From Thiohalorhabdus sp. Cl-TMA (GTDB lineage: Bacteria > Pseudomonadota > Gammaproteobacteria > Thiohalorhabdales > Thiohalorhabdaceae): DNA of 64,000 nt. A program made the position numbers and the translations under genes. This document shows positions 3,557 through 21,155 of the stretch, piece after piece; within the stretch, counting starts at the first letter, position 1; every line of letters starts with the position of its first letter. The stretch spans positions 186,001 to 250,000 of the forward strand of contig NZ_JBGUAW010000003.1 of assembly GCF_041821045.1 (NCBI RefSeq). The letters run 5' to 3'. Under the pieces are notes generated by a model. It saw only the letters and a list, made by a program, of their open reading frames with translations, ran no database searches and was not told where the DNA came from.

Positions 3557-4927
3557 TTGGGCTGGATCATGGATCTCTGGGAACGGATGAAGGATGTCCG
3601 CTCGTGGATCGGCTGGGCCATCGTGGCGGTCTCCGCATTGAGCCTGCTCACCTGGGGCTACATGCGGGCCAACCAGGACCGCGTGGTACAGGTGGCCACG
3701 GCGGGAAAGGGCGGTTACTACTACCAGTTCGGCACCATCCTCAAGCGCCATGTGGAAAAGGCCACGGAATACCAGGTGGAGCTCCTCGAGACCAAGGGGT
3801 CCGTGGACAACCGGTCCAAGCTTCTCAAGGGTCAGGCGGACATGGCGATCCTGCAGACCTCGGCGGTGTCCATGGAGAATCTGCGGGTGGTGGCGCCCCT
3901 CTGGAACGACTACATCCACTTCATCGTCCGCGACGGATCGGGGATCGCCAGCCCCGCGGACATCTCCGGCAAGCCCTTCGTGCTGGGTCCGGAAGGCTCC
4001 GGTTATCGGGCCAGCTCGCAGTTCATCCTGAGCCATTACGGCATCGAGCCCGCGGACGTGGCGGACAACACCGCCTATTTCAAGGAGCTGCTGACCAACG
4101 ATTCCCTCCAGGGGGCCATCGTCACCACCAGCCTGATGAACCCGGACCTGCAGGACGTCATGGCCAGCGGCCGCTTCCGTCTGCTGTCGCTGCCGGCGCT
4201 GGAGGGCGTGGCCTTCCACAACATCTACTTCCGCACCGTGGCAATCCCGCGCGGCGTGTACGCCACCAGCGGCATCCCCCGGCCCGCCGAGCCCACCGAT
4301 ACCATCGCCACCGAGGCGGTGCTCGCCAGCACCAGCCAGGTCCCCGACCGCATGGTGGAGACCGTCATGAATGTCCTCTACTCGGGGGAGCTGCGCTCCG
4401 AGGCCCCCCATCTGACGGACCGCAACCCGGTAACCGACAGCTTCGAGGATTTCCTCAATCTCCATGCCGCGGCCAAGAGCTTCTACGAGCCCTACTCCGG
4501 CCTGGGCGTGTTCTCGAACCTGATCGCCTATGTGGACCGGTTCAAGGAGATGATCCTGCTGGGCCTCATCGGCATCGGTGTCTTCCTCTACGAGTGGCGC
4601 AAGAAAAGCCAGCAGAAGGCCCGGGAAAAGCTCCGCAAGGGCCGGGAGTCCGTGGAGCGGCTCATGGCCCAGCTCGCCTGGCTGGAGCGCTCGCAGAAGG
4701 AGACCAAGGATCTGCGTGCCCTGCAGCGCTACTACGACGAGGCCTTCGAGGTGAAATACCGGGGCCTGGAGGAGACCGCCCATACCGGGGTGCAGGAGAC
4801 CACCCTGTTCCACGTCTTCCTGCAGGAGTGTGGCAACGTGATCAGCCAGCTTCAGTGGCGCATGGAGCATGGAAGCGCCGTGTACAGGGAGCGGCCCGAG
4901 GAGGCCCGCACGGGTACGGAGGGATAA
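3557..4927 (+). CDS. Membrane-anchored TAXI-family solute-binding protein with cytoplasmic coiled coil
   Basis: A 456-aa protein. The TTG at 3557 has GGAGG 8 bases upstream; the ATG at 3569 is the alternative. One membrane helix (residues ~17-35) is followed by a TAXI/NMT1-like periplasmic domain: TAGKGGYYYQFG at ~49, then a ligand-fold segment with KGSVDNRSKLLKGQADMAI. A second helix (~330-347) leads into a Lys/Arg/Glu-rich coiled coil facing the cytoplasm. TAXI proteins normally bind carboxylates or amino acids for TRAP transporters, but no TRAP permease (DctM or fused DctQM) is present. Instead, two HAMP-type sensor proteins follow 4 bases downstream. The anchored form suggests the protein stays at the membrane and may signal occupancy to them. 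The ligand is unknown. Confidence 0.8.
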   Translation: MGWIMDLWERMKDVRSWIGWAIVAVSALSLLTWGYMRANQDRVVQVATAGKGGYYYQFGTILKRHVEKATEYQVELLETKGSVDNRSKLLKGQADMAILQTSAVSMENLRVVAPLWNDYIHFIVRDGSGIASPADISGKPFVLGPEGSGYRASSQFILSHYGIEPADVADNTAYFKELLTNDSLQGAIVTTSLMNPDLQDVMASGRFRLLSLPALEGVAFHNIYFRTVAIPRGVYATSGIPRPAEPTDTIATEAVLASTSQVPDRMVETVMNVLYSGELRSEAPHLTDRNPVTDSFEDFLNLHAAAKSFYEPYSGLGVFSNLIAYVDRFKEMILLGLIGIGVFLYEWRKKSQQKAREKLRKGRESVERLMAQLAWLERSQKETKDLRALQRYYDEAFEVKYRGLEETAHTGVQETTLFHVFLQECGNVISQLQWRMEHGSAVYRERPEEARTGTEG

Positions 4928-4931: not shown

Positions 4932-5720
4932 TTGGAGGAGCCGAGGAAGGGGCTATCCCTGGTGGCCACGTTCACGGGCGTGGTGCTCTTCATCGTCACT
5001 TTCGCGGTGGGGCTCAGCGCCCTGCTCAACGAGTTCAGCTTCGAGAAGAGCTACGAGGAGCTGGTGGCCTCCCGCTACGAGTACAGCCTCAAGGACATGG
5101 GCCGCAGCATCGAGCTGAGCCTGGGCCTGGGGCTGAGCCTCGGCGAGGCCAAGAACATAGGGGCCCTGATCCGGGAGTCCGCCGCCGAGGATCCCTACAT
5201 CCGCAGCGTGCTGGTCTACGACGACGAGGGGAACATTCTCTTCTCGAGCAAGGCGGGCGAAGACCGGGGCCGGGTGCCGTCCACCTGGCCCGGCAGCTCG
5301 GGGGACCGGCGCGAAAGCCTCTGGAGCCGGGAGCAGGACCGGGCCTTCGTCCTCGGCTACCCCCTGTTCAATCCCTTCAATCAGTATGAAGGCACCCTGG
5401 CCCTTTCCTATTCCCGGGACGCGGTCTCCGGGGTGGTCGGAAAGGTGCGGAGCCGGCTGATGCTGCAGGCCCTCGGCGTGCTCGTGGTGTCGGGCCTGGT
5501 GGGGGCGCTGGTCATCTGGCTGGCGCTCGGCGGCTTCGTGCGGCGCCTTTCCCGCATCTCCCGGGGCCTCGACGAATTCCAACGGACCGGACGGATGCAC
5601 CCCCTGTCGAAGGGACGTTGGATGGGCCTGGAAGCGGATTTCGACCGGTTCCAGCGGGATGTCCAGGCGGTGGAGGCCGATATCCCCGCGGAGGAGCGGA
5701 CAGAGGAGACGGCCCGGTGA
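4932..5720 (+). CDS. Membrane sensor protein (TM-periplasmic-TM-HAMP) lacking an output domain
   Basis: A 262-aa protein. The TTG at 4932 is chosen because GGAGGG ends 8 bases upstream and it sits 4 bases after the previous stop. A first helix is at residues ~7-28. The periplasmic domain (~29-175) has sensor-like features: a SYEELVASRYEYSL helix, then VLVYDDEGNILFSS, typical of Cache/PAS-like extracytoplasmic domains. A second helix lies at ~177-203, followed by a HAMP-like segment (GGFVRRLSRISRGLDEFQ). The protein stops after about 60 further residues, with no kinase, cyclase or methyl-accepting domain. It matches the N-terminal third of the next gene in layout. It probably acts as a partner subunit of the sensor-MFS protein, with which its stop codon overlaps. 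Confidence 0.75.
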   Translation: MEEPRKGLSLVATFTGVVLFIVTFAVGLSALLNEFSFEKSYEELVASRYEYSLKDMGRSIELSLGLGLSLGEAKNIGALIRESAAEDPYIRSVLVYDDEGNILFSSKAGEDRGRVPSTWPGSSGDRRESLWSREQDRAFVLGYPLFNPFNQYEGTLALSYSRDAVSGVVGKVRSRLMLQALGVLVVSGLVGALVIWLALGGFVRRLSRISRGLDEFQRTGRMHPLSKGRWMGLEADFDRFQRDVQAVEADIPAEERTEETAR

Positions 5721-7708
5721 AGATTTCCGGCGACAAGGGCTTTCAGGCGTTCGTCATGGGAATCGCGCTGACTATCCTCCTCAGCGCCACCCTGGCGATC
5801 TCGGTGCTTTCCCTGCAGACCTTCCAGGAGACCCTGCGGCCCGCCATGGAGCGCAAGGCGGAGGTGGTGGGCGAGTCGCTCTCCGGGCTCACCATGAAGA
5901 TGCTCGACTACGGCGTCCCCCTGGACCGCCTGCGCGACATCGAGGAAATCTTCCGGTCGGTGACGGCCAACAATCCGGACATCGGCTTCATCAGCATCCG
6001 CGACGACAGCGGCGAGGTGCTGTACCGGCACTTCGCCGAATCGGCGTCCGCCCCGGAATCATTGAAGGAGCGGTTCTACCTTTCCCGGGTGCCGGTGCGC
6101 CATCAGGGCGGGGTCGTCGGGGAGGTGGTTATCGGCGCCGACCGGGGCTACATGAGCCAGAAGCTCGACGCCATCCGGGTGGATATCCTCACCGTGCTGG
6201 TGGTTTCCGGGCTCATGACCTTCGAGCTGCTGCTTTTCCTGACCACCTTTACCCTGGCCTCGCCGCTGAATACCGTCCGTGACGTCCTCCGGTCAGTGCG
6301 GGCCGGGGACTTCTACCGGGTGGCCCCGCTCACCGGGGCCCATGAGGTGAACCGGCTGGCGTCGCTGGTGAACCGGCTGGTAAGGCGGGTGAATGGCCGG
6401 CTGCAGCAGCTGGGTGAGGAGACCCAGGAGGCCATGGCGGAGAAATACCGCTTCGGCACCCGGGACCCGAAGCCGGTGCGCACGGCCCGTATCAGCTACA
6501 TCCGCCCGCCGCTGTTCCTGCTCATCTTCGCCGAGTCCATGAGCCTGTCCTTCTTCCCCATTTTCGTGGACCAGCTCTACACCCCCATGGCCGGCGTTTC
6601 CAAGAGTCTGGTCATCGGCCTGCCGATCTCCATCTTCATGCTGGTGTGGGCGGTTTCCCTGCCCTTCGCCGGACAGTGGTCGGACCGGCGGGGACGCCGC
6701 ACCGCCTTCATGCTGGGGGCGGTGGTCACCTCCCTGGGCCTGGTGCTCACCAGCCTGTCGCAGGACCTCTGGCAGCTCCTGCTGTTCCGCTCCCTCACCG
6801 CCGTGGGCTACGGGATGGTGTTCATCAGCGCCCAGGGCTACATCTCCGACAACACCACTCCGGAGAACCGCACCAAGGGCATGGCGCTGTTCCTGTCCGG
6901 ATTCTTCGCCGGCTCCCTGTGCGGGGCGGCCATCGGTGGCATGCTGGCCGACCGCATCGGCTACCGGCCGACCTTCCTGGTCTCCGCGGTGCTGGGCATC
7001 GCCGCGGCCCTGTTCGTCTATCGCTTCCTGGTGGACCGGCGGGAGGAAGAGGAAGGCACGGTGCGTCCCAAGCTCAGGGTGAAGGATTTCCAGACCCTGC
7101 TGACCAACAAGTATTTCCTGATCATCACCTTCCTGTCCGCCATACCCGCCAAGACCGCGCTCACGGGCATCCTCTACTACACGGGGCCGCTCTACCTGGA
7201 AGAGCTGGGCGCCACGCAGTCCGCCACCGGCCGGATCCTGATGGCCTACGGTCTGGCCATCATCTTCCTGTCCCCCCTGAGCGCCTGGGTGGTGGACCGG
7301 GTGGGCAGGAAGCCCCCCTTCATAATCGCCGGCGGCCTGCTGGGCGGGACTTCCCTGCTCATGACCCTGCTCATCCCGGGGGTTTGGGGGATGCTCTCGG
7401 CGGTGGTGCTGCTGGGGGTGGCCCACGCCATCGGCGTTTCGCCCCAGCTCTCGCTCATCACCGAGCTGGCGCCCGGGGCGCGGGAAGGCCTCTCCACGGG
7501 CAAGACCATCGGCATCTTTCGGCTTACCGAGCGGATCGGGAACATCACCGGGCCCCTGCTGGCCGGGGGGCTGAGCGCGGCCTTCGGATTCCGGGGGGTA
7601 TTCATGGGCTTCGGCGGGCTGATCCTGGGCAGCGCCCTGCTGTTCAGCCTCCTGTACCTGCTCTTCCAGATCCAGGACCGCCGACGGATGGAGGTGCACG
7701 CCGTATGA
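5717..7708 (+). CDS. Sensor-HAMP domain fused to a complete MFS transporter
   Basis: A 663-aa protein. The GTG at 5717 overlaps the preceding TGA and has GAGGAG 8 bases upstream. The N-terminus is receptor-like: TM1 (~11-31), a periplasmic sensor domain (~32-155, with GFISIRDDSGEVLYRHF), TM2 (~158-180) and a HAMP-like region (~181-235). Residues ~263-650 form a full Major Facilitator fold with about 12 helices. MFS motif A appears in both halves: GQWSDRRGRR near 319 and VVDRVGRK near 524. A receptor module joined to an MFS permease is unusual; HAMP domains normally lead to kinases, cyclases or chemoreceptors. The operon context (two binding proteins, a partner sensor, a porin) suggests a transporter whose activity is gated by a periplasmic ligand. 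The substrate is unknown. Confidence 0.85.
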   Translation: MKISGDKGFQAFVMGIALTILLSATLAISVLSLQTFQETLRPAMERKAEVVGESLSGLTMKMLDYGVPLDRLRDIEEIFRSVTANNPDIGFISIRDDSGEVLYRHFAESASAPESLKERFYLSRVPVRHQGGVVGEVVIGADRGYMSQKLDAIRVDILTVLVVSGLMTFELLLFLTTFTLASPLNTVRDVLRSVRAGDFYRVAPLTGAHEVNRLASLVNRLVRRVNGRLQQLGEETQEAMAEKYRFGTRDPKPVRTARISYIRPPLFLLIFAESMSLSFFPIFVDQLYTPMAGVSKSLVIGLPISIFMLVWAVSLPFAGQWSDRRGRRTAFMLGAVVTSLGLVLTSLSQDLWQLLLFRSLTAVGYGMVFISAQGYISDNTTPENRTKGMALFLSGFFAGSLCGAAIGGMLADRIGYRPTFLVSAVLGIAAALFVYRFLVDRREEEEGTVRPKLRVKDFQTLLTNKYFLIITFLSAIPAKTALTGILYYTGPLYLEELGATQSATGRILMAYGLAIIFLSPLSAWVVDRVGRKPPFIIAGGLLGGTSLLMTLLIPGVWGMLSAVVLLGVAHAIGVSPQLSLITELAPGAREGLSTGKTIGIFRLTERIGNITGPLLAGGLSAAFGFRGVFMGFGGLILGSALLFSLLYLLFQIQDRRRMEVHAV

Positions 7709-8736
7709 GGCGGCACGGCTGGAGCGCACGGATTCGGGGATGGCTCGCGGCCGTGGCCCTGGGGGTGGGCGGGCTCGCCGCCCCGCCCGCCGCCCCGGCG
7801 GCAACCGGGGAAAAGCCGCCCACCATCTTCATGGTCCTCTGGCGGGGCATGACCGATGCGGAACGGGGCTTCCAGGCCTATTTCCGGGAGAACGACATCC
7901 CCGTGAAGTACATCGTGCGGAACGCCGCAAAGGACCTGGACCGGCTGGAGGGCATCCGGGAGGAGATCAAACGGGTCCGCCCCGACTTGGTATACACCTT
8001 CGGGACCACCGTCACTTCCCGCATAGCGGGTACGGCCAGGCGGGAGCATGCGGACAAGTACGTGACGGACATCCCGGTGGTCTTCAACATCGTCGCCGAC
8101 CCCCTGGGGGCCGGACTGACCCGCTCCCTGGAGCGCACCGGACGCAACCTCACCGGGACCTCCCATTCCGTTCCCCTTTCCAGCCAGCTAAAGACCCTGC
8201 GGCGCATCGAGCCGGTGGAGAAGCTGGGCGCGCTCTACAACCCCCTGGAGCGCAATTCGGCGCTGGCGGTTCAGGAGCTGGCGCGGCTGGCCCGGGAGCG
8301 GGGGATGGAATTCCATTCCGTGAACGTACGGGTGCGCGACGCCAAGCCCCAGCGCTCCTCCATCTCCCACAAGGTGGCCGCGCTGGCGGAGAAGGGCGTG
8401 CGCTTCGTCTATCTGCCCTCGGACTCCTTCCTGATCTCCAACGCCGAGGCGGTCGTCCAGGCCATCCATGACCGGGGCATGATCACGTTCTCGGCCACGG
8501 AGGGGCCCATCAGCGACGCCGGGGCGTTCGTGGGCATCGTGAGCCTGTACTTCAACGTGGGGAAGTTCGCCGGACACAAGGCCGCGCGGATCCTGGTGGA
8601 CGGCAAGGACCCGGCCTCCATCCCCATCGAGACCCTCGAGCGCTACACGATCCTGGTCAATATGCGAACGGCCCGGAAGCTGGATTACTTCCCCCCGGTT
8701 CCGGTTCTGGAGTTCGCCAAGGTGGTCCAGCAATGA
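7705..8736 (+). CDS. ABC-type substrate-binding protein (ABC_sub_bind / TrpX-like family)
   Basis: A 343-aa protein. Its ATG overlaps the previous stop as ATGA. The N-terminal signal peptide (residues 1-~33, Ala/Pro-rich end) directs export. The rest matches the ABC_sub_bind family (PF04392), a periplasmic-binding-protein fold related to LacI-type sugar binders. Family-like segments are PDLVYTFGTTVTSRIAGT, DIPVVFNIVADPLGAG, LGALYNPLERNSA and FSATEGPISDAGAFVGIVSL. In other bacteria such proteins bind aromatic amino acids or similar ligands and feed an ABC permease, or are coupled to sensor proteins. No ABC permease or ATPase is nearby, so here it may present ligand to the sensor domains of the two upstream proteins. 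Confident as to family, not as to ligand. Confidence 0.8.
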   Translation: MRRHGWSARIRGWLAAVALGVGGLAAPPAAPAATGEKPPTIFMVLWRGMTDAERGFQAYFRENDIPVKYIVRNAAKDLDRLEGIREEIKRVRPDLVYTFGTTVTSRIAGTARREHADKYVTDIPVVFNIVADPLGAGLTRSLERTGRNLTGTSHSVPLSSQLKTLRRIEPVEKLGALYNPLERNSALAVQELARLARERGMEFHSVNVRVRDAKPQRSSISHKVAALAEKGVRFVYLPSDSFLISNAEAVVQAIHDRGMITFSATEGPISDAGAFVGIVSLYFNVGKFAGHKAARILVDGKDPASIPIETLERYTILVNMRTARKLDYFPPVPVLEFAKVVQQ

Positions 8737-8808: not shown

Positions 8809-10050
8809 ATGAAGAAGAAACGGATTCTGCAGGGGGCTGCCCTCCTGCCGGGCCTCGTCGCCGCGCCCGCCATGGCGGGCGGCGCAATCGACATCGACGG
8901 GGAGAGCAGGCTGAATCTGGGGCTCTCCCTGCAGGCCCATTACCTCCGTAACGATTCCGACCTGGAAGCGGATCCCGCCAACGAAAACCGGTTCACCGTC
9001 CGGCGGGCCCGGTTCCGCCTGGGGATGCAGGTCACGGAGGAGGTCGGCGCCTTCCTGCAAACGGAATACGGCACCACCGAGGGCGGCGTGGGCGCGGAGA
9101 TGCGCCTCATCGACGCCTTCATACGGTACACACCGCATCCCTGGGCGCGGTTCTACGTGGGCGAGAACATGGCTCCCACGACCCGCCAGCATCTCACCGG
9201 CCACGGCAGCATGCTGGCCTTCGACCGCCCCGCCATCATCAACAAGGAGCTCGCCTGGGGCTCCAAGGCGAAAACGGCGCTCCAGAACAGTACCCTGCCC
9301 GGAACGGACGCGGGGCTCGGCACCAGTGCCGGGGTTCGTGACAAGGGCGTAACCCTGTTCGGCAGCGGCCCGCTGATCGGGGCGCTGTCCGCCAAGTATT
9401 ACCTGGGCGCCTACGAGGGCTCCAAGTACCGCGTCGAGGACGAGGAACGGTTCTCGGGGCGGGTCCAGGTGAATCTCGGGGACCCCGAGCCGGGTTATTA
9501 CGAAGGCTCCACCTACCTGGGCCGCAAGCGGACGGTGGCGCTGGGGGCGGCCTTCGACCGCCAGCGGGGCGTGGCCGCCGATGCCGCCGGGGATCCGGTG
9601 GACTACGCCGCGTATACCGTGGACCTGTTTTTGGAGCAGCCGCTGGGGCCGGGCAGCCTGAGCGCGGAGACCGCCTGGCAGAGCATGGAGCTGGACGGCA
9701 CCACCGGTTTTCTGTGGGAGGCAGACGACGGCCTGCCCCAGGTGCGCCTGGACGACGACGCCGTCACCGCCGAGCAGGCCGCGGGGGAGGGCTTCTACGT
9801 CCAGGCCGGATATTTCGTGCAGCAGGGCGACCGGGAAAGCCGCGGCTGGCAGCCCTGGGCCCTATACGAGGAGTGGACGAGCGAGGCGGACGGCGATGCG
9901 GGGAGCTTTACCAGTTACCGCTACGGCCTCACCTATTTCATCAAGGGCAGCCGCGCCAACATCAAGGCGGGCTACGAGGTCACCGAGCCCAGGGCGAAAG
10001 GCGCGGACACCATTACTACGGCCGGGCTCGGCTTCTTCGTCTTCTACTAG
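8809..10050 (+). CDS. Outer-membrane porin, phosphate-selective porin O/P-like
   Basis: A 413-aa protein. The ATG at 8809 is preceded by AAGGGA at 5 bases and starts a signal peptide (KKKR, hydrophobic core, cleavage after APAMAGG-like residues near 24). The mature protein shows porin alternation: RFTVRRARFRLGMQVTEEVG and a following acidic/aromatic barrel pattern. Long polar loops and a final strand ending in Phe-Val-Phe-Tyr complete it. The opening strands resemble OprO/OprP-type porins, whose name does not guarantee phosphate as substrate. It lies 72 bases after the substrate-binding gene on the same strand and probably supplies the outer-membrane entry route for the ligand of that operon. 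Confidence 0.75.
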   Translation: MKKKRILQGAALLPGLVAAPAMAGGAIDIDGESRLNLGLSLQAHYLRNDSDLEADPANENRFTVRRARFRLGMQVTEEVGAFLQTEYGTTEGGVGAEMRLIDAFIRYTPHPWARFYVGENMAPTTRQHLTGHGSMLAFDRPAIINKELAWGSKAKTALQNSTLPGTDAGLGTSAGVRDKGVTLFGSGPLIGALSAKYYLGAYEGSKYRVEDEERFSGRVQVNLGDPEPGYYEGSTYLGRKRTVALGAAFDRQRGVAADAAGDPVDYAAYTVDLFLEQPLGPGSLSAETAWQSMELDGTTGFLWEADDGLPQVRLDDDAVTAEQAAGEGFYVQAGYFVQQGDRESRGWQPWALYEEWTSEADGDAGSFTSYRYGLTYFIKGSRANIKAGYEVTEPRAKGADTITTAGLGFFVFY

Positions 10051-10106
10051 TCGCCTGAAAGCCGTCCGTCCTTGAGTGTATCGACCAAAGCGGCGGGGTG
10101 ATCGCC

Positions 10107-13055
10107 ATGAGCGAAGGGGTGAGCTACAGCTTCCGCTGTCGGGGGAGCTTTTCGGGGGAAGCGCCCAAGGTGGTCCGGTTCACGGGCACGGAGGGCATCT
10201 CCCGGCTGTACCGGTTCGTCGTCGAGCTGCGCTGGGAGGACCCCGACGTCGACCCCGCGGAGGTCCTGGACAAGCCCTGGACCCTGGAGATGAACGTGGG
10301 TGGCGAGCAGCGGGTGGTCCACGGGCTGGCCATGGGCTTCGAGGAGCTCGGGCAGGCGGGTCCCGATGCGCTGTACCGGGTGGTTCTGGTGCCGCGGCTT
10401 TGGCGGGCGACCCGGAATCCCACCAGCGGCGCATACCTGGATCAGACCGTGGAGGAGATTATCCGGGAGGTCCTCGAAGGGGATGCCGGACTCACCACGG
10501 AGGACTACGAGCTCGACCTGCAGACGGATTACCGCAAATGGGACTACCGCTGCCAGTTCGGTGAAACACCGTTCAGGTTCCTGGCTCGCCTGATGGAGCG
10601 GGAGGGGATCTATTTCTTCTTCGAGCATCCCCCCGACGGCAAGCACGAAAAGCTGGTCGTCACCGACCACCGCGGCCGTCAGCCCGAAGCCCCGGAAGAG
10701 CCGTTGACCTATGCCCCGGACCGGGGGCAGGAGGTGGACGGCTTCGGACGCCTGCTGCGCGCCTTCGTTTCCCGCCATGACCACGTCCCGGGGCAGGTGG
10801 TGGTCCAGGACCACAACCCCGATCAGCCCGCTGCGGATCCCCAGGGGGAAGGTGAGGTGGAAGGCGGGGGCGGCCAGGTGGTGTACGAATACGGCGACAG
10901 CATCCTGGATCCGGAAGAGGGCGAGCGCCTCGGGCGCGTGCGTACCGAGGAGCTGCAGTGCCGGCGCCGGCGCTTCTTCGGCGAGGGCAGCGCGGTGGGG
11001 CTGCTGGCCGGGGCGCGCTTCGCCCTGGAGGGGCATTTCCGCGAGCGCTTCAATCGCGAATTCCTGGTGACCGAGCTGGAGCACAGCGGCCACGAGCCGA
11101 GCCTGCTGGTGGCGGATTCGGAGCCGGCCGGGGAGCCGCCCTACGCGTGCAGCCTCACGGCCCTGCCCGGGGATGTCCAGTTCCGTCCGGAGCGGAGTCA
11201 CGACAAGCCCCGCTTCCACGGGTCCATGACGGCGCGGGTGGAGTCGGAGGAAAGCAGCGAGAAGTACGCCTTCATCGACGATCAGGGCCGGTACAAGATC
11301 CGCCTGCCCTTTGACCGTAAAGGGGGAGATCGGCCATCGGGCAAGGCCTCCCACTGGGTGCGGACCGCCACCCCGTACGGCGGCAAGGAGGAGGGCCTGC
11401 ACTTCCGGCTTCGGCCGAATACCGAGGTGCTGCTGACCTTCCTGGAAGGGGACCCGGACCGGCCGGTGATCTCGGGGGTCTCCTCCAACCGGGACCAGAG
11501 TGCCAGTTTGCTGGAGTCGGATCGCACCAAGCACTGGCTGCAGACGCCGGGCGGAGTGGGAATCCGGCTCACGGATTCGGAGGAAGAAAAGGGCATGGAC
11601 ACCCTGCTCTGGGCGAGCTGGCAGACCCAGGTGGGGGACTCCGGAAAGTTCACCTCCGATATCAATACCCAGGCCTATTCGCCGGACGGGCGGACCAGCG
11701 ACCCGACCCGTCCGCCGAATACCGACCCCTTCCTGCCCCGCAATCATAAGGGCGGGCTCCAGGATGACCAGAAGTCGGATCCCTGGAGTCCACAGGATTA
11801 CACGGAGAGCCCGGCGCAGTTCGAGGCCCAGGACGGCGGCGGCGCCAAGGTCCGTTACCGTTTCGTGCGGCGCAACGCCGACGAGTACCACTTCCAGGTC
11901 GGGGACAGCTTCACCTGGGGAGACGGGGACAACGAGAGCCGGGACTTCCTGTTCGGGCGGCAATACCAGATTAGCGTGGCCAGCGAGGGGAACCACGAAA
12001 AAGCGGCGCCCACGGAGTACCTGATCGATACGCTGGCGGGGCAGTCCGTCAAATCCGGCGGGATCGTGGACAAGCGCAATCTGGGTACGGATGCCGACTG
12101 GGCGGAGGTGAAGAAGCTGGCCAACGTGAATCTCGGCGCCTATGACCAGATCAACTATGTGGAGGGCAGCGTCTACGATTTCGGCGGCTATTGGGAATAC
12201 GCCATGGGCAACGGCTACGAGGAGGCCCTGTTGGCCCGGGACGGCTCCGGGGAGTGGCCGCTGAATGCGGATTGGCTGGGCAAGGCGGGAACCGAAATGC
12301 CCGCCTTCCAAAGCACCATCGGTCCGGGGAACGACGTCAACGGTAAATTCCTCAATCTGGACGGCGGCAAGACGCTGGTCTCCAGGACCGTGGATCCGTC
12401 GGAGGCGGGCGGGGTCTTCGACTATACCCAGGCCGACGTGATCGAGGTGCATCGCGGCAAGAGCGAGGAGCATCGCCAGGGATCCAGCTACGAGCTGGCC
12501 TACGACGGCGGGGGGACCCTGCGTAGCCAGGCCTGGAAGGAAGGGACGGACTACGAGGAGCAGAAGTGGGACCCCAACGGCGTGGCCTACCACTTCAAGA
12601 AGGGCTACTGCTGGGGCGGCATGGACGACTGGTTCGAGTGGAGCAACATGGCCTCCATGAGCCTCAACATGAGCCTGTCGTCCATGAGCTCGACGAATAT
12701 CTACGCGGCCAATTCCAATACTTTGAATGTCTTTGCGGGTGCGGAGAGTGAAATAACCGTAAAAGCCTCTGCCGGGTTCTCGCTTACAGCCAATGCAGCG
12801 GTCAATTTGGACCTAAATTTCAATGCCGCCGCGAATATAAATATTTTTGTTGCCTCTCTGGATGTCGCGCTCGACCTTATAAATATGCAGATCGGAGTGG
12901 AGGGGCCAGGGGTGGAGATTGATACGGAGGCGATCACTGGTGGTGTATATTTGAAGGCCCCGGGACTGGAGCTGAATTCCAATATGTTTGAGAGATCCAT
13001 CAAGGTCTTGGGGGTAAATATAGAGATGCCCTCCGCCATGGAAATTAAAGTTTGA
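10107..13055 (+). CDS. vgrG: Type VI secretion spike protein VgrG, long form (copy 1)
   Basis: A 982-aa protein. The ATG at 10107 is preferred to the GTG at 10098 because GGGG lies 8 bases upstream. Residues ~5-330 form the gp27-like VgrG base (EGISRLYRFVVELR, LPW-type segment LDKPWTLEMNVGGEQRVVHG, EREGIYFFFEH). Residues ~370-470 form the gp5-like OB domain (DDQGRYKIRLPFDRKGGDRP, LLTFLEGDPDRPVISGV). A region of about 300 residues with no recognised domain follows. A beta-repeat tail rich in Asn/Ala forms the C-terminus. The protein trimerises as the puncturing tip on the Hcp tube. From about 12721 the DNA turns markedly AT-richer, unlike the rest of the gene, so the last ~110 codons look imported. 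Stretches are identical to the next gene. Confidence 0.9.
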   Translation: MSEGVSYSFRCRGSFSGEAPKVVRFTGTEGISRLYRFVVELRWEDPDVDPAEVLDKPWTLEMNVGGEQRVVHGLAMGFEELGQAGPDALYRVVLVPRLWRATRNPTSGAYLDQTVEEIIREVLEGDAGLTTEDYELDLQTDYRKWDYRCQFGETPFRFLARLMEREGIYFFFEHPPDGKHEKLVVTDHRGRQPEAPEEPLTYAPDRGQEVDGFGRLLRAFVSRHDHVPGQVVVQDHNPDQPAADPQGEGEVEGGGGQVVYEYGDSILDPEEGERLGRVRTEELQCRRRRFFGEGSAVGLLAGARFALEGHFRERFNREFLVTELEHSGHEPSLLVADSEPAGEPPYACSLTALPGDVQFRPERSHDKPRFHGSMTARVESEESSEKYAFIDDQGRYKIRLPFDRKGGDRPSGKASHWVRTATPYGGKEEGLHFRLRPNTEVLLTFLEGDPDRPVISGVSSNRDQSASLLESDRTKHWLQTPGGVGIRLTDSEEEKGMDTLLWASWQTQVGDSGKFTSDINTQAYSPDGRTSDPTRPPNTDPFLPRNHKGGLQDDQKSDPWSPQDYTESPAQFEAQDGGGAKVRYRFVRRNADEYHFQVGDSFTWGDGDNESRDFLFGRQYQISVASEGNHEKAAPTEYLIDTLAGQSVKSGGIVDKRNLGTDADWAEVKKLANVNLGAYDQINYVEGSVYDFGGYWEYAMGNGYEEALLARDGSGEWPLNADWLGKAGTEMPAFQSTIGPGNDVNGKFLNLDGGKTLVSRTVDPSEAGGVFDYTQADVIEVHRGKSEEHRQGSSYELAYDGGGTLRSQAWKEGTDYEEQKWDPNGVAYHFKKGYCWGGMDDWFEWSNMASMSLNMSLSSMSSTNIYAANSNTLNVFAGAESEITVKASAGFSLTANAAVNLDLNFNAAANINIFVASLDVALDLINMQIGVEGPGVEIDTEAITGGVYLKAPGLELNSNMFERSIKVLGVNIEMPSAMEIKV

Positions 13056-13078
13056 GTTAATTGGTTTGAGCATTGTGC

Positions 13079-16000
13079 ATGAGTGAAAAAGTTAGCTATC
13101 GCTTCCATTGCCGAGGACGCTTCGACGGGGAGCCCCTTCAGGTGGTGCGCTTCTCCGGCACCGAGGGCATATCGCGGCTCTACCGGTTCCGCGTGGAGCT
13201 CCGCTCGGCGGACCCCGATCTGGCGCCGGAGGAGGTCCTGGACAAGCCCTGGACCCTGGAGATGAACGTGGGCGGCGAGCAGCGGGTGGTCCACGGCATC
13301 GCCTGGGGGTTCGAGGAGCTGGGGATGGCGGGCCCCGACGCGCTCTATCGGGTCACCCTGGTGCCGCGCCTGTGGCGCGCCGACCAGGGCCCCACCAGCG
13401 GCGTCTACCTTCACCAGACCGTGGCGGAAACGGTGCATGACCTGCTGGAGGAGGACGCGGGTCTCACCCGGGAGGACTACGAGCTCGACCTCCAGACGGA
13501 CTACCGCCAATGGCCCTACCGCTGCCAGTTCGGGGAAAGTCCGTTCCACTTCCTGGTGCGGCTGCTCGAGCGGGAGGGAATCTGCTTCTTTTTCGAGCAC
13601 GATCCGGAAGGCAGCCACGAGAAGCTGGTGATCACTGACCATCGGGGCCGTCAGCCCCGGGTGCCCGAGTCGGCGGTTACCTTCGCCCCCGACCGTGGGC
13701 AGGAGGTGGACGGCTACGGGCGTATCCTGCGCTCGCTGGTTTCCCACCACAATCCGGTGCCGGCGAATGTGGTGGTGCAGGACCACAACCCCGACCAGCC
13801 CGCCGTTGGGGCGCGCGGTGAAGGCATGGTGGCGGGGGGCAGCGGCGGCTCCGTGTATGAGTACGGTGACAGCGTGCTGGACCCGGAGGAAGGCGAGCGC
13901 CTCGGCCGCGTGCGGGCCGAGGCGCTGCAGTGCCGGCGCCGGCGCTTCTTCGGCGAGGGCAGCGCGGTGGGGCTGCTGGCCGGGGCGCGCTTCGCCCTGG
14001 AGGGGCATTTCCGCGAGCGCTTCAATCGCGAATTCCTGGTGACGGAGCTGGAGCACAGCGGTCACGAGCCGAGCCTGCTGGTGGTAGAGTCGGAGCCGGC
14101 CGGGGAGCCGCCCTATGCATGCAGTCTCACGGCCGTGCCCGGGGACGTCCAGTACCGCCCGGAGCGGAGTCACGACAAGCCCCGCTTCCACGGGGCCATG
14201 ACGGCATGGGTGGAGTCCGAGGAGGAGGACGCCAAGTATGCCTTCGTGGACGACCAGGGGCGCTACAAGGTGCGCCTGCCCTTCGACCGCAAAGGCGGAG
14301 ACCGGCCATCGGGCAAGGCCTCCCACTGGGTACGGACCGCCACCCCTTACGGCGGTAGAGAGGAGGGTCTGCACTTCCGGTTGCGGGCCGGGACCGAGGT
14401 GCTGCTGACCTTCCTGGAGGGGGATCCGGACCGGCCGGTGATATCCGGCGTGGCCACCAACCGCGAGCAGACCGCCAGCCAGGTGGAGGGGGACCGCACC
14501 AAGCACTGGCTGCAGACCCCCGGAGAGGTGGCCATCCGGTTCACGGATTCGGAGGAAGAGAAGGGCATGGACACCCTGCTCTGGGCGAGCTGGCAGACGC
14601 AGGTGGGGGATTCCGGAAAGTTCACCTCCGACGTCAATACCACCGCCTATGACGCGGACGCCGGCTCCGGGGCGGTGAGCCGGCCGCCCAACACCGAGCC
14701 CTTCCGGCCCCGGGACCACGCGGGCAGCCTGAGCTCGGCCTGCTACGGCGACGATGCCCGGGACATCGGGGCGAACGGCTATCCGGAGCCCGTCCAGCCC
14801 ACGGGCTATACCGACAGCCCTGCCGCCTATACCGCGGCATCCGGGGATACCAAGGTCCGCTACCGGTTCGTCCGCAGGAACGCCGATCTCTACTGCCATC
14901 TGGTGGGGGACAGCTATACCTGGGGAGGTCCGGACAACCGGGATTTCCGCTATGGGCGCTCGTTCACGGTGCATGTGGCCAACGAGTCCCACTACAAGCA
15001 AGGCCCCGCCGGAGGGGGCTGGCCCGCGGCCTCCCTGATCGCGGATTTCGAGGGGCTGTCCATCCTCGAAAGTGGCAAGGACGGCGGTCCGGGCGTCCGC
15101 GGGGCCATGAACGCCGGCGAGGACTGGGCCGAGGTCAAGCGGCACGCCAACGTGCACCTGGGCGCCTACGACACCATCAAGGCCGTGGACGGCAACGTGT
15201 ACGACTACGGCGGCAACGGCGACTACGCCCTGGGGAACGGCTACGAGGAGGCCCTGCTCGGCGCCGTCGAGGGCAGCTGGCCCCTGAACGTGGATTGGGT
15301 GAACGAGGACCCCGGGAAGATCAGCAAGGGGGATCTTCCCGATTTCCAGGCGGAGCCCGGTCCCGGCAACGACGTAACCGGCAAGCACATCGCCCTCGAC
15401 GGCGGGAAGGCGGCCATCTCCAAGACCGTGGACCCGGAGGCCACGGGCGGCGGAGCGGGGACCGGCACCAAGGTGGGCGGGGTGTTCGACTTCGTCCAGG
15501 CGGACGTGATCGCCGTCCACCGGGGGGCGGGCGAGGAGCACCGCCAGGGCCATTCCTACGAGCTGGCCTACGACAAGGAAGGCACCCTGCGCAGCCAGGC
15601 CTGGAAGGAAGGAACGGACTACGAGGAGCAGAAGTGGGACGGCAACGGCGTGGCCTACCACTTCAAGAAGGGCTACTGCTGGGGCGGCATGGACGACTGG
15701 TTCGAGTGGAGCAACATGGCCTCCATGAGCCTCAACATGAGTCTGTCGTCCATGAGCTCGACGAATATCTACGCGGCCAATTCCAATACGCTGAACGTTT
15801 TCGCCGGAGCCACCAGCGAGATCAGTGTCCACGCTTCCGCGGGCCTGGAGGTGGACCTCCAGGTCGCCGCGAAGCTGGCGATGGAATTCAACGCGGCGGT
15901 GGCCCTGAATATTTCCGCGAAGGCCCTGGAGATCGACCTGAACGCCGCCAACGGGGAGCTCGAGGTCGCGGGCTATGCTGCCCACCTGTACATGGAAAAC

Positions 16001-16117
16001 GGCCACTTCAAGATGCGAACCCCGTTCCTGGCCATCGACACGGAGCAGGGCCACCTGGACCTGAAGCTCGCCGGATTCAATCTGAAAACCTTCAGCGGGA
16101 TCCACCTTGCTAGCTGA
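13079..16117 (+). CDS. vgrG: Type VI secretion spike protein VgrG, long form (copy 2)
   Basis: A 1012-aa paralogue of the preceding gene, 23 bases downstream. The ATG at 13079 aligns with the start of copy 1 (MSEKVSYRFHCRG versus MSEGVSYSFRCRG); its ribosome site is weak (GAG 8 bases upstream). It has the same order: gp27-like base, OB domain, an unassigned middle of ~330 residues, and a beta-repeat tail. A 120-nt block (13924-14043) is identical to 10952-11071, and a second block (15643-15788) is identical but for one base, showing recent exchange. After 15789 the two tails differ completely, and this one has the normal GC content. Differing tails on a shared body suggest each spike carries different cargo or tip partners. 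Confidence 0.9.
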   Translation: MSEKVSYRFHCRGRFDGEPLQVVRFSGTEGISRLYRFRVELRSADPDLAPEEVLDKPWTLEMNVGGEQRVVHGIAWGFEELGMAGPDALYRVTLVPRLWRADQGPTSGVYLHQTVAETVHDLLEEDAGLTREDYELDLQTDYRQWPYRCQFGESPFHFLVRLLEREGICFFFEHDPEGSHEKLVITDHRGRQPRVPESAVTFAPDRGQEVDGYGRILRSLVSHHNPVPANVVVQDHNPDQPAVGARGEGMVAGGSGGSVYEYGDSVLDPEEGERLGRVRAEALQCRRRRFFGEGSAVGLLAGARFALEGHFRERFNREFLVTELEHSGHEPSLLVVESEPAGEPPYACSLTAVPGDVQYRPERSHDKPRFHGAMTAWVESEEEDAKYAFVDDQGRYKVRLPFDRKGGDRPSGKASHWVRTATPYGGREEGLHFRLRAGTEVLLTFLEGDPDRPVISGVATNREQTASQVEGDRTKHWLQTPGEVAIRFTDSEEEKGMDTLLWASWQTQVGDSGKFTSDVNTTAYDADAGSGAVSRPPNTEPFRPRDHAGSLSSACYGDDARDIGANGYPEPVQPTGYTDSPAAYTAASGDTKVRYRFVRRNADLYCHLVGDSYTWGGPDNRDFRYGRSFTVHVANESHYKQGPAGGGWPAASLIADFEGLSILESGKDGGPGVRGAMNAGEDWAEVKRHANVHLGAYDTIKAVDGNVYDYGGNGDYALGNGYEEALLGAVEGSWPLNVDWVNEDPGKISKGDLPDFQAEPGPGNDVTGKHIALDGGKAAISKTVDPEATGGGAGTGTKVGGVFDFVQADVIAVHRGAGEEHRQGHSYELAYDKEGTLRSQAWKEGTDYEEQKWDGNGVAYHFKKGYCWGGMDDWFEWSNMASMSLNMSLSSMSSTNIYAANSNTLNVFAGATSEISVHASAGLEVDLQVAAKLAMEFNAAVALNISAKALEIDLNAANGELEVAGYAAHLYMENGHFKMRTPFLAIDTEQGHLDLKLAGFNLKTFSGIHLAS

Positions 16118-16171
16118 TCCGGCAACCCGGTACGTGCGGCGGGGAGCGGGGCGCTTGCCCGGCGGGGCGCC

Positions 16172-18979
16172 ATGCGCTTCGTAAAATCGCTCAGGGCCTC
16201 CCTGCTGAAGAGCAACCTCCTGTGGCAGGACCGGACCTTCCTGACCGTCTCCGCACTCTGGCCCTTCGACCTGTGCGGGGATCGGCCCCTGCTGGAAACC
16301 GATTTCCTGCCCGCCATGGCCGGTGCGGACGACGGCGCCTACCTGCCTGTGGACACCGGCTACCCCAAGCCGCAGGGAGAGTTCCTGGTGATGGGCAGCT
16401 GCCACCCGCCGGGCGGAAAGGCGGTGCAGTGCCGGGCCGAGGCGGAGGTGGCCGGGGTCCGGAAGGTGGTGGAGGTGTGGGGGGATCGGTTCCGGCGGGG
16501 TGGTGGCCTGGAGGGGCCGGCGCCCTTCCGGGAAATGCCCCTCGGATACACGCACGCCTACGGCGGCGAGGGCTTCGCGGACAACCCGGTGGGCAAGGGC
16601 GCGGCGGAAGTCTACGGCGGGGAGGGCGAGCGCCACCTGCCCCTTCCCAATCTCCTGGCCGTCCAGGAGTCGGCCCCCGGCGCGACGGGCGCCACGCCGG
16701 TTGCCTTCGGCCAGACCGGCGTGGACTGGGAGTCACGGCGCAAGCTGGCCGGAACCTATGACAGCACCTACATCGAGAAATGGATGCCCGGCTTCCCGCC
16801 CGACCTGGACTGGTCGTATTTCATGCAGGCGGCGCGGGACCAGTGGCTTCCCGGGTATTTCCAGGGCGCCGAGCGGATCCGCCTCGTCAATATGCACCCG
16901 GAGCGCGGGGAGCTGCGAACGGCGCTGCCCGGCATCCGGGCGCGGATCTTCGTCCTGCGGGAAAGGGGTAATGGCGAGGAGCTGGTGGAGCTGCCGGCGA
17001 GGCTGGACACCGTGCTGCTGTTTCCGGACCGGGAAATGGGCGTGGTGGTGCACCGGGGGCTGCTGGAAGGGGTGGAGCGCGACGAGGACGATGTGCTGGG
17101 GATCCTGGTGGCCCACGAGGCGGACTCGGAGCCGCGGCGCTCCAAGGCGCACTATCGGGAATTCTACCGCGGGGTGAGCGACCCGGAGCAAAGCTTCCGC
17201 TACCAGCTGGATACCGGCCCCCTCATACCGGAAGGGTTCGCCACGGAATTCGAGGTGCTCCAGGAACGGCAGCCCGATACCGATGAATCGGCCCTAACCG
17301 GGAACCTGCAGGCCCTGGGGGACCGCAAGCGGGAGGAGGTGGAGCAGCAGGTCAAGGAGGCCGAGGCGCGGGCGGAGGATCGGCTGGCGGCCAGCCCGGA
17401 CGCCCCCCGCGTGCGCATTCAGGGGGTCCACGGTCAAACCGAAGAGGCCGCGGAGCAGGTGTCCCCGCTCTCGGAGGGCAAGGTCCAGGAGATCCTGGAC
17501 CGGGCCCTGCCGAAGAAGGCGGACGGCTCCGGGGCGGTGGATCCCGCGCGGCTCGATCTCGCGGCCCTGGATGAGCTGATGGAGCTGGGCCAGCAGGTGG
17601 CCGACGACCAGCTGGAGGGGGCCGTCCAGAAGCTGGAGGCGCAGAAGGAAGAGATCCGGAGTCGTCTGCCCGCCCAGGAGCAGGAGGCGCCGTTGGCGCG
17701 GATCGAGCGCCAGATCCGGCTCCTGCGCGGCGAGGAAGCGGCGCCGCTGCCCCGCTTCGGGCACGTCCGGGAGCAGTACGACGCCCAACGGGAGCAATTG
17801 CGGATCCGGATCCACAATCTGCATGCCCTGGGCCTGGGTGCCGAGGAGCTGGTGAAGGCCAAGGAGCACCTCGACGCCCTGGAGGAGGAGCTGCGGAAGG
17901 CCCTCGACGCGGCGATCGGGGGCTATCGGCAGTCCGCCCATCACCAGTCGGCGGCCTCCTCGCCGCATCCGGGGGAGGAGGCGGCCATCGTCGAGCGGCT
18001 GAAGCGGAACCTGGCCGCGGGAATCCAGCCTGCCGGCGGGGATTTCGCCTTCACGGATCTGTCCGGGTGCGCCTTGACGGGGGCGGATTTCAGCGGGGCG
18101 TTCCTGGAGCACGCCGACCTGCGCGGCGCCGATCTGCGGGGTGCCCGATTGGACCGGGCCATCCTCGTGTTCGCGAACCTGGAGGGGGCCAATCTGGAGG
18201 GGGCCGGCCTGCGCGAGGCGAACCTCGGCGGCGCCTGCCTGGACCGGGCGAATCTGACCGGTTGCGACGCCACCGGTGCGCTTCTGCCCCGGGCCTCCCT
18301 GGTGGAGGCGACACTCCGCAACGCCGTGCTCAAGGAGCCGGCCGAGCCCATGCGGGAGGTGGTCCTGCGCGGCGCGGACTTTACCGGCGCCGATCTGGCC
18401 GGCGGGGTTTTCCAGGAGCTGGATTTCGCCGCCGTGAACCTCACCGAAGCCAATCTGGCGGGATGTCAGTTCCTGCAATGCGGGCTGGCGGGGACCCGCT
18501 TCGACCGCGCGACCCTGGAGGGCGCCAATTTCCTCCAGGCCAGCGGCGAAGGAGCGAGCTTCCACGGCGCCGCCCTGGCCAATGGCCGCTTCCTCGGCGG
18601 CTGTGCACTTCCCGGCGCGGACTTCTCCGGGGCCGGTTGCAGCATGGGCGGTTTCCGGGAGGCGGATCTGACCGGGGCGGATTTCGGCGAGGCGCTCCTG
18701 GACCAAGCGGATTTCGGCGGGGCCCGGCTCGAAGGGGCCCGCCTGGACCGGGCGCGGCTGCGGCAGGCCATGCTCCACCGCGCCAACCTGGACCGCTGCA
18801 GCGCCCGGGGGGCCGATTTCATGGAGGCCTGGCTGCAGGAGGCCACCCTGCGGGGCACGGATCTGTCCGGCGCCAGCCTCTACGGCGCCAACCTCTATTA
18901 CATCACCATGGGGGCCACGGAGACGGCGGGCGCCAATCTCGCGGGCACCATCCTGCAGGACTGGGTGCCGGACCAATGA
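16172..18979 (+). CDS. DUF2169 protein with coiled coil and C-terminal pentapeptide repeats (T6SS accessory)
   Basis: A 935-aa protein. Residues 1-~340 match DUF2169, a domain found next to vgrG and PAAR-like genes and thought to act as an adaptor or chaperone for T6SS cargo. Cues include an N-terminal SLLKSNLLWQ-type segment, GYTHAYGGEGFADNPVGKG and YFMQAARDQWLPGYFQG. Residues ~355-600 are charged and helical (many Glu, Lys, Arg, Gln), consistent with a coiled coil. From ~635 to the end runs an almost uninterrupted array of A(D/N)LXX pentapeptide repeats, which fold as a right-handed square beta-helix. The next gene's ATG overlaps this stop. Function as a cargo loader is inferred from the family and the neighbourhood. 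Confidence 0.8.
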   Translation: MRFVKSLRASLLKSNLLWQDRTFLTVSALWPFDLCGDRPLLETDFLPAMAGADDGAYLPVDTGYPKPQGEFLVMGSCHPPGGKAVQCRAEAEVAGVRKVVEVWGDRFRRGGGLEGPAPFREMPLGYTHAYGGEGFADNPVGKGAAEVYGGEGERHLPLPNLLAVQESAPGATGATPVAFGQTGVDWESRRKLAGTYDSTYIEKWMPGFPPDLDWSYFMQAARDQWLPGYFQGAERIRLVNMHPERGELRTALPGIRARIFVLRERGNGEELVELPARLDTVLLFPDREMGVVVHRGLLEGVERDEDDVLGILVAHEADSEPRRSKAHYREFYRGVSDPEQSFRYQLDTGPLIPEGFATEFEVLQERQPDTDESALTGNLQALGDRKREEVEQQVKEAEARAEDRLAASPDAPRVRIQGVHGQTEEAAEQVSPLSEGKVQEILDRALPKKADGSGAVDPARLDLAALDELMELGQQVADDQLEGAVQKLEAQKEEIRSRLPAQEQEAPLARIERQIRLLRGEEAAPLPRFGHVREQYDAQREQLRIRIHNLHALGLGAEELVKAKEHLDALEEELRKALDAAIGGYRQSAHHQSAASSPHPGEEAAIVERLKRNLAAGIQPAGGDFAFTDLSGCALTGADFSGAFLEHADLRGADLRGARLDRAILVFANLEGANLEGAGLREANLGGACLDRANLTGCDATGALLPRASLVEATLRNAVLKEPAEPMREVVLRGADFTGADLAGGVFQELDFAAVNLTEANLAGCQFLQCGLAGTRFDRATLEGANFLQASGEGASFHGAALANGRFLGGCALPGADFSGAGCSMGGFREADLTGADFGEALLDQADFGGARLEGARLDRARLRQAMLHRANLDRCSARGADFMEAWLQEATLRGTDLSGASLYGANLYYITMGATETAGANLAGTILQDWVPDQ

Positions 18980-20052
18980 ATCGCCGGGAGCTGGAGGCGC
19001 GCATCCAGGGGCGGGAGGGCGAGCATCCCGTCATCGAAAGCCGGGATTTCTCCGGCGTGGAGCTGGCCGGCGCGCAGCTCCAGGGGGGCATCTTCTACAG
19101 CACCGCCTTCCGGGGCGCGGTGCTGCGCGGCGCCGATCTGCGGGAGTCCCTGTTCATGGACTGCGATTTCACCGGCGCCGATCTGCGGGGGGCGGACCTG
19201 AGCCGAACCAAGCTCATGCAGGGCACCATCGGGGAGGCGGACTGCTCCGGCTGCGCTGCGGAGTCCCTGGTGCTGGCGGAAACGGAGGGCGCCGGAAGCG
19301 TCTGGACGGAGGCCTGCATGGACAACGGCGTGCTCGGCGGCGGAGACCTTACCGGGGCGCGCTTCACGGGAATCCGGGCGGAGAAGATGGTCCTGGCCGG
19401 TTGCCGCCTGGACGACGTTGACCTCTCCGGCGCCCGGCTCGTGGAGCCCAACCTGGCCGCCAGCACGGGGATGCGGGGGCTGCGCCTGTCCGGGGCCGCC
19501 ATCGAGCGCGGCACTTTCCAGGACCTGGCCCTGGAGGACTATGACTTCCGCGATATGGCGCTTTCGGACTGCCAGTTCCTGGAGGCCTCCCTGCCCGGCG
19601 CGGATTTCAGCGGACTGGATCTGGGACAGTGCGGGTTCAAGGGGGCGGAGCTGACCGGCGCGCGCTTCGACCGGACGGTTACCCGGTATGCCATGTTCCT
19701 CGAAGCGGATCTTTCCCGGGCCAGCCTGCGGGGTGCCGGCCTCCAGCAGGCCCTGCTGATCGGCGCGAACCTTGCCGGAGCCGAGCTCGCGGGGGCGGAC
19801 CTGGAGATGGCCATGCTGCGCGAGGCCCGCTGTCCCGAGGCGGGCTTCGTCGGCGCCCGGCTCCGCTACGCGGACCTGTCCCAGGCCGACCTCACGGGCG
19901 CCGACCTGAGCCGCGCGGAGCTCTACCAGGCGAAGCTGCATCGCATTCGGGAGGAAAAGACCATCTGGGACGGCTCCTCGCGGGACCAGGCGAAGGAGAC
20001 CGACGAAAAGCGCGCCGAGGCGGAGGATTTCCGTCCGGCGGGAAAGGGCTGA
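18976..20052 (+). CDS. Pentapeptide-repeat protein (T6SS accessory)
   Basis: A 358-aa protein whose ATG overlaps the preceding TGA (ATGA). Apart from a short N-terminal helix (NRRELEARIQGREGE) and a charged C-terminal tail, residues ~22-335 are pentapeptide repeats (ADLRGADL, GADLSRAEL and similar), predicting a long beta-helical rod. It resembles the C-terminal half of the preceding protein, so the pair may come from duplication and partial fusion. Such proteins recur in DUF2169/DUF3540/DUF4150 clusters, where their job is unknown. A role as structural rod, adaptor or effector is possible, and no catalytic motif is visible. No signal peptide is present. Confidence 0.8.
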   Translation: MNRRELEARIQGREGEHPVIESRDFSGVELAGAQLQGGIFYSTAFRGAVLRGADLRESLFMDCDFTGADLRGADLSRTKLMQGTIGEADCSGCAAESLVLAETEGAGSVWTEACMDNGVLGGGDLTGARFTGIRAEKMVLAGCRLDDVDLSGARLVEPNLAASTGMRGLRLSGAAIERGTFQDLALEDYDFRDMALSDCQFLEASLPGADFSGLDLGQCGFKGAELTGARFDRTVTRYAMFLEADLSRASLRGAGLQQALLIGANLAGAELAGADLEMAMLREARCPEAGFVGARLRYADLSQADLTGADLSRAELYQAKLHRIREEKTIWDGSSRDQAKETDEKRAEAEDFRPAGKG

Positions 20053-20053
20053 A

Positions 20054-20731
20054 ATGGGTCGATCGGAGGCACCGGCCATGCAAGAAGGAAGCACCGTGGA
20101 AGGAACGCAGGTACCGCCCGCACAGGAGCTGCGGGCCGGGGTGGTGGAATCCGCCGCGCAGGGCGGCTGGAGCGTGGCGCTGGATACCGGAAAGATTCGG
20201 GCCGAAAAGGCCTTCAGCTGCCTGGTGGAGCCCCGGTGGGGCGACCGCGTCCTGGTGGCGGAGCTGGCCGGCGCGGCCTACATCCTCGCGGTTCTGGAGC
20301 GCCAGGGCGCCCAGGACACGCGCCTGAGCTTCCCGGGGAACGTGGATATGCAGGCGCCCAACGGCGACCTGCGCCTCACTTCGGACCGGGAGGTGGACCT
20401 CACGGGCTCGGAGGCGCGGGTGACGGCCCAGCGGACCCGCATGCTGTCCCGGGAGATGGACGTCTACGCCGAGCATCTGTCGGCGCGTGGTGGTGCCCTC
20501 CAGGCGCAGGCCACAGAGGTGAGCGTGACCGCCAAGCGCAGCAATACGGTAATCGGTCGGGTCTTCCAGCGCGCCGAAGCGGTGGTGCGTCAGGTGGAGC
20601 AGGTGGAGACGCTGCACGTGGGCAGCCTCGTCCAGACCGTGCGCGAGCAGCTCAACCTGCGGGCCCGCTGGGGCGTCCTGCGCACCAGCAAGGACCTGAG
20701 CATCGACGGCGAGCACATCCACATGGGCTGA
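20054..20731 (+). CDS. DUF3540-family T6SS-associated protein
   Basis: A 225-aa protein; the ATG at 20054 follows AAGGG at a proper distance. A second ATG nine codons in is an alternative. The central part (RAEKAFSCLVEPRWGDRVLV, ILAVLERQ) looks like a small OB-type or beta-sandwich domain. It is followed by regular beta strands (VDMQAPNGDLRLTSDREVDL and so on), resembling the needle-like repeats of VgrG tails. DUF3540 proteins occur almost only in T6SS loci with DUF2169 and DUF4150 neighbours, as here. By shape it could be a spike-associated assembly factor. Family call is good, biochemical role unknown. Confidence 0.7.
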   Translation: MGRSEAPAMQEGSTVEGTQVPPAQELRAGVVESAAQGGWSVALDTGKIRAEKAFSCLVEPRWGDRVLVAELAGAAYILAVLERQGAQDTRLSFPGNVDMQAPNGDLRLTSDREVDLTGSEARVTAQRTRMLSREMDVYAEHLSARGGALQAQATEVSVTAKRSNTVIGRVFQRAEAVVRQVEQVETLHVGSLVQTVREQLNLRARWGVLRTSKDLSIDGEHIHMG

Positions 20732-20750
20732 AGGGCCCCAAGGAGCGGCC

Positions 20751-21143: not shown

Positions 21144-21155
21144 CAGGAGCCCGTA

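Follow-up and report, generated by a model that had tools for sequence, protein, structure and literature searches.

The window considered here, the whole stretch of 64,000 nucleotides analysed from Thiohalorhabdus sp. Cl-TMA, carries a compact operon followed by a type VI secretion system (T6SS) cluster (Table 1). The central gene of the operon is an uninterrupted open reading frame, and its product combines a sensor, a HAMP-type segment and a complete MFS transporter in one protein. The GTG start codon of the fusion gene overlaps the stop codon of the upstream sensor gene (GTGA), and its own stop codon overlaps the ATG of the following binding-protein gene (ATGA at 7705). The first-pass annotation had described a receptor joined to a full transporter in a continuous frame, with an operon start coupled by overlap, and all three points are confirmed.

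Table 1. Features of the fusion operon and the adjoining secretion cluster in the window. Residue numbers refer to the fusion protein.
Feature	Position	Strand	Basis or remarks
TAXI-family solute-binding protein, accessory	3569..4927	+	TIGR02122, E 1.4e-37
SENS, separate TM-Cache-TM second sensor subunit	4932..5720	+	Start TTG 4932 or ATG 4869; 262-283 aa
Sensor-HAMP-MFS fusion, 663 aa	5717..7708	+	ORF, Pfam, hydropathy, family alignment, AlphaFold2
Fusion: TM1	residues about 13-31
Fusion: Cache-like periplasmic domain	residues about 35-155
Fusion: TM2	residues 157-175
Fusion: HAMP-type segment	6251..6391 (residues about 179-225)	+	Pfam PF00672 sub-threshold; family-level conservation
Fusion: linker
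Fusion: DHA1-like MFS	residues about 256-655
Orphan ABC_sub_bind solute-binding protein	7705..8736	+	PF04392, E 4.1e-31; signal-peptide-like N-terminus
ExtI-like outer-membrane porin	8809..10050	+	NF040900, E 1.1e-28, below cut-off; system membership uncertain
Type VI secretion cluster	10098..36686	+	Orientation as fusion operon
T6SS: VgrG	10098, 13073
T6SS: TssC	22901
T6SS: TssK	25721
T6SS: TssL	27118
T6SS: TssM	27851
T6SS: TssB-TssC-like	31351
T6SS: TssF	34006
T6SS: TssG	35703

The C-terminal part of the fusion protein matches MFS_1 (PF07690, residues 267-594, E 5.5e-68, above the cut-off), as do all 65 members of the aligned family. Hydropathy places the two sensor TMs (13-31 and 157-175) ahead of the MFS helices. 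The AlphaFold2 model, built with 65 homologues, is confident (mean pLDDT 90.4, pTM 0.87) and runs from a long helix through a four-strand alpha/beta periplasmic domain, a long helix leaving the membrane and a second HAMP-like helix into a 12-TM MFS. The topology of the modelled periplasmic domain fits a single Cache, and sCache_3_2 is matched in 6 of 65 members. MFS entries filled the results of a structure search with the whole fusion model, which leaves the sensor fold without an independent structural match. The MFS part of the model matches the structures of VMAT2, NorA, SotB and G6PT (VIA Z about 37-42 to the first three). In the structure and PDB profile searches, the nearest MFS structures are mostly DHA1-type exporters or antiporters.

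Both copies of motif A are present in the fusion protein, as G319-xxx-D323-R-R-G326-R-R and D527-R-V-G-R-K. Across the family, D323 is conserved in 51/65 members and G326 in 63/65. The alignment also shows conservation of the TM4 arginine R358 (63/65) and of E605 and R606 in TM11 (65/65 and 63/65). Most members retain motif A, the TM4 arginine and membrane-embedded charges, and a working MFS conformational cycle is therefore likely in most of the family. The sensor itself carries an acidic residue, E170, inside TM2 (conserved in 64/65). An acidic residue is uncommon in receptor TMs and hints at contact with a further membrane component.

HAMP segments are known to have kinases, cyclases, phosphatases or the coils of chemoreceptors as outputs. 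In the fusion protein, PF00672 aligns to residues 179-225 with an E-value of 0.0013 and scores 19.4 bits in the protein scan or 24.1 in the genome scan, below the cut-off of 25 bits. Of the profile matches anticipated from the sequence, MFS_1 is found outright, and HAMP stays below the cut-off in this protein but is matched in 22 of the 65 family members, being sub-threshold in most. The signature positions of HAMP recur across the family, with P183 in 63/65 members, N219 in 57/65, and G, D and F at 197-199 in 44, 36 and 40 of 65, respectively. The model places helices at 143-195 and 209-231 in this region. A family profile further matches a histidine kinase construct of solved structure (9trk, E 2e-6) over profile positions 198-262, which correspond to the HAMP region. 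The predicted HAMP segment, weak in the fusion protein alone, is supported at the family level by conserved positions, profile matches and the model. A divergent subgroup (L039, L051, L052, L076-L078) shows no HAMP in the alignment, nor by a scan of one member (P0002), and HAMP therefore cannot be essential to the whole family. The same subgroup has a degenerate motif A. Depending on the member, the stretch joining HAMP to the MFS is as short as 24 or as long as 116 residues, which argues against rigid mechanical coupling in every member.

Full-length sensor-MFS relatives occur in Pseudomonadota, Thermodesulfobacteriota, Myxococcota and Spirochaetota. Class- and phylum-level searches with a two-sequence profile found relatives in about a dozen and a half genomes, and 13 of 398 sampled Pseudomonadota genomes match (about 3%). 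A separate class-level search returned a diverged relative that has the MFS and a pair of sensor modules in a single chain. Scanning the genome collection with the fusion as a single-protein query gave no relatives. With an alignment of eight family sequences as the query, the scan gave 80 loci, almost all of them aligned over the sensor as well as the MFS, from Vibrio, Hahella, Marinobacterium, Marinomonas, Thalassospira, Oxalobacteraceae, Thermodesulfobacteriota, Corallococcus and a spirochaete. The MFS domains of the fusions fall into a single clade against 14 generic MFS in a quick maximum-likelihood tree (SH-aLRT 99). The architecture that the first-pass annotation proposed to look for in other genomes hence recurs in four phyla, and its relatives are intact and full-length instead of being split into two genes with a frameshift at this locus. 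These intact homologues in many independent genomes rule out a frameshift, an assembly artefact or a chance fusion. One relative (L099) lies on a contig labelled as a Bordetella parapertussis metagenome-assembled genome and is close to those of Janthinobacterium and Moraxellaceae; the label may be wrong. Aquibaculum carries a second, degenerate sensor-MFS copy (L075 12137-14164, also L131) that has lost the conserved TM11 ERxG. This copy forms a tandem pair with an intact one, and a SpoIIE phosphatase comes after it.

Partner genes were counted in 79 distinct loci, each having 1.5 kb or more of sequence to either side of the fusion and chosen by an MFS peptide pattern irrespective of neighbouring genes. 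A second TM-Cache-TM sensor is present in 77/79 loci, 47 times as a separate gene just upstream and 30 times fused in the same chain, though a few of the fused assignments depend on long upstream frames and may reflect a misplaced start site. The receptor module seen by the first-pass annotation is accordingly present in the chain as TM-Cache-TM-HAMP but is not self-contained. SENS, the separate second sensor of the window, matches dCache_1 below the cut-off (E 2.9e-4), and a PDB profile search with it gave chance matches only. Profile-profile alignment with hhalign identifies SENS as homologous to two sensors, the N-terminal one of the fusion (98.6%) and the first one in the fused Vibrio proteins (99.7%). 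Because SENS is homologous to both sensors, the fused double-sensor chain can be read as a Rosetta stone for a complex of SENS and the fusion, which suggests that the two act together.

The second recurrent partner is the binding protein. An ABC_sub_bind gene lies within 5 kb of the fusion in 75/79 loci and is directly adjacent on the same strand in 64/79. The common gene order is SENS, fusion and binding protein, typically with overlaps of a few bases. PF04392 is rare, with 0-3 matches per genome, and the genome of the window has only the operon copy. Among 12 genomes, copies linked to the fusion make up 11 of the 17 above the cut-off. Only 2/79 loci have an ABC ATPase motif pair within 4 kb of the fusion, on the opposite strand in both, and the window locus has none. 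The binding protein is considered an orphan because ABC ATPases are almost absent nearby. Judged by gene content and order, the extra sensor, the sensor-transporter fusion and the periplasmic binding protein are a conserved three-part system.

The TAXI protein, whose co-occurrence had been put forward as support for a real system, was rejected as a conserved partner. Its gene is found in 4 of about 92 loci (the window, L080, L133 and L142), and the partner that is conserved is ABC_sub_bind. Unusually for a periplasmic solute-binding protein, the TAXI protein of the window has a hydrophobic segment at its C-terminus together with a tail that resembles a coiled coil. No DctQM-type membrane subunits are among the Pfam and NCBIfam matches of the operon proteins between 3569 and 10050, where the permease is the MFS.

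The neighbourhoods of the module are recurrent. T6SS clusters contain or adjoin 34 of the 92 distinct loci examined (the window and 33 others). SpoIIE-type phosphatases adjoin 19/92, often with STAS and HATPase_c_2 partner-switching genes, and two of these 19 are also beside a T3SS gene. Further loci adjoin cyclase or GGDEF-EAL genes, and 27/92 show none of the searched output genes in the sequence at hand. By taking the transporter as the only output, the first-pass annotation overlooked the adjoining T6SS, T3SS, SpoIIE/STAS/HATPase, cyclase and GGDEF-EAL genes. The main T6SS operon of many Vibrio contains the fusion, flanked by clpV on one side and by the genes for the binding protein, FHA and tssK on the other. 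The quick tree requires at least three changes in T6SS linkage on well-supported branches. Two genomes of the same genus without the fusion are also without the T6SS sheath gene. Several neighbouring output proteins carry sensors of their own. As far as gene order can tell, these neighbourhoods favour some service of the module to the adjoining systems, and the MFS may be a signalling part and not the final output.

Several details of these clusters stand out. In Thalassospira (L139, L145), the module lies between an sctU-like T3SS export-apparatus gene and genes for a SpoIIE phosphatase and a HATPase. Vibrio T6SS clusters (L083-L102) have a small SBP_bac_3-like protein of about 240 aa between the ABC_sub_bind and FHA genes. 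In the window, the 576-aa protein at 31351-33081 matches TssB (25-121) and TssC (155-573) and is an apparent TssB-TssC fusion, and a second full TssC is encoded in the same cluster at 22901-24364. The match of the TssM-like protein at 27851-31336 (1161 aa) to the TssM model is confined to the first 468 of its 1168 positions.

A study of Vibrio fluvialis lists two such genes at the border of VflT6SS1, a cluster likely inactive under the conditions tried, and calls the flank of the V. furnissii cluster identical to that of V. fluvialis (PMC5371669). V. furnissii (L130) carries the module beside its T6SS, and since its flank was called identical, the V. fluvialis border genes are probably the module described here. 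That study recognised neither the fused sensor nor a conserved system (PMC5371669).

The interpretation that we favour, and that might prove right or wrong with about equal chance, is a conserved binding-protein-dependent sensory transport system in which HAMP sets the state of the MFS in the service of an adjacent output. The orphan periplasmic ABC_sub_bind protein would bind a small ligand and dock on a receptor that combines two Cache modules, SENS and the transporter's own Cache domain. The two TM pairs would form the usual four-helix receptor bundle, with both modules in one chain in Vibrio. The HAMP-type segment might then relay the signal to the DHA1-like MFS at its cytoplasmic face and alter its conformational cycle, so that an external ligand would set transport, or the state of the transporter. 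The operon would be sited beside the process that it serves, which could be the T6SS in the window and in many Vibrio and Oceanospirillales, and SpoIIE/STAS, a cyclase or T3SS elsewhere. Stimulation of receptor ligand-binding domains by solute-binding proteins is an established mechanism (PMC9602780). For the module itself, we infer the docking of the binding protein, the heterodimeric receptor, the gating of the MFS by HAMP and the link to an output. Direct gating of transport by the ligand, as already proposed in the first-pass annotation, would likewise be part of this mechanism. Points against it are the sub-threshold HAMP of most members, its absence in the divergent subgroup, the variable linker and the sensors that several adjoining output proteins have of their own.

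That the module so often adjoins signalling-enzyme genes and secretion clusters could also be explained by a transceptor, although we regard this as rather unlikely. The MFS would no longer be important as a transporter but act as a membrane sensor or transducer, as UhpC does for UhpB, and together with the Cache modules and the solute-binding protein would signal by protein contact to the neighbouring SpoIIE phosphatase, cyclase or T6SS. The second Aquibaculum copy, which lacks the TM11 E-R pair and still lies in the operon, fits such a role, as does the degenerate motif A of the divergent subgroup. However, most members retain motif A, the TM4 arginine and the charges in TM1 and TM11, which a pure receptor need not do. 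The fusion also has no cytoplasmic output domain, and about 27/92 loci lack the searched output genes in the sequence at hand.

More doubtful still is a secondary transporter that depends on its solute-binding protein, as in TRAP, with Cache modules acting as docking platforms that pass ligand from the binding protein to the MFS and no signalling involved. An orphan binding protein with no ABC ATPase nearby in 77/79 loci fits such a transporter, and TAXI, the binding-protein class of TRAP, is found in the window and three other loci. Against this, the Cache fold and the HAMP-type segment are signalling parts, the repeated siting in T6SS clusters and beside SpoIIE/STAS genes would be unexpected for plain uptake, and the closest MFS structures are mostly of exporters or antiporters. 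An ordinary MFS pump with a vestigial N-terminal extension and incidental neighbours, in line with the sub-threshold HAMP score and with profile libraries that name the fusion only as an MFS transporter, is highly improbable given that architecture and operon are conserved across phyla, the partners are near-universal and the sensor and HAMP positions are conserved.

The preferred sensory transport system would have broader implications. As a conserved family, HAMP segments leading into a transporter would widen what bacterial receptors can control, and the family would make ligand-gated secondary transport directly testable. For clusters that stay silent in the laboratory, VflT6SS1 among them, the linkage to T6SS makes the module a candidate for the environmental cue that they lack, and the module may couple external sensing to transport and attack behaviour. 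The fused Vibrio form is a natural single chain apt for structural work. More tentatively, and with somewhat less than an even chance of being right, we suggest a new class of device. In it, a heterodimeric Cache receptor activated by a solute-binding protein would have as its HAMP output a secondary transporter switched directly by an external ligand, which would tie the exchange of nutrients or cues to the deployment of T6SS, T3SS or partner-switching regulation.

No description of the three-part system was found in the open-access literature, and subscription journals may hold one. A review of T6SS regulation makes no mention of MFS, HAMP, substrate-binding, Cache or SpoIIE. The parts belong to known families and their combination is apparently undescribed. 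Cache-HAMP receptors, which include chemoreceptors, histidine kinases, cyclases and SpoIIE-type phosphatases, share the TM-Cache-TM-HAMP input module and a second TM-Cache-TM subunit with the system, and the operon-encoded binding protein recalls receptors stimulated by solute-binding proteins. Such receptors end in a kinase, cyclase, phosphatase or coiled coil, whereas the HAMP of the fusion leads into a 12-TM MFS. DHA1-type drug/H+ antiporters (NorA, VMAT, MdfA, SotB) share the fold, the motif A copies, the TM4 arginine and the TM1 acidic residue. The fusion differs by its N-terminal receptor and HAMP, its family-specific IPAK and RxxERxG signatures and its near-universal binding-protein and sensor partners. 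TAXI/TRAP systems resemble the window in the TAXI-class protein upstream and in the pairing of a solute-binding protein with a secondary transporter, but the operon lacks DctQ/DctM subunits and its permease is an MFS. An MFS protein with a sensory role is known from UhpC-UhpB-UhpA, where UhpC is a stand-alone MFS that signals to the separate kinase UhpB. UhpC has no fused sensor, whereas the fusion described here carries a sensor in its own chain and is associated with two Cache modules, a solute-binding protein and no fixed kinase partner.
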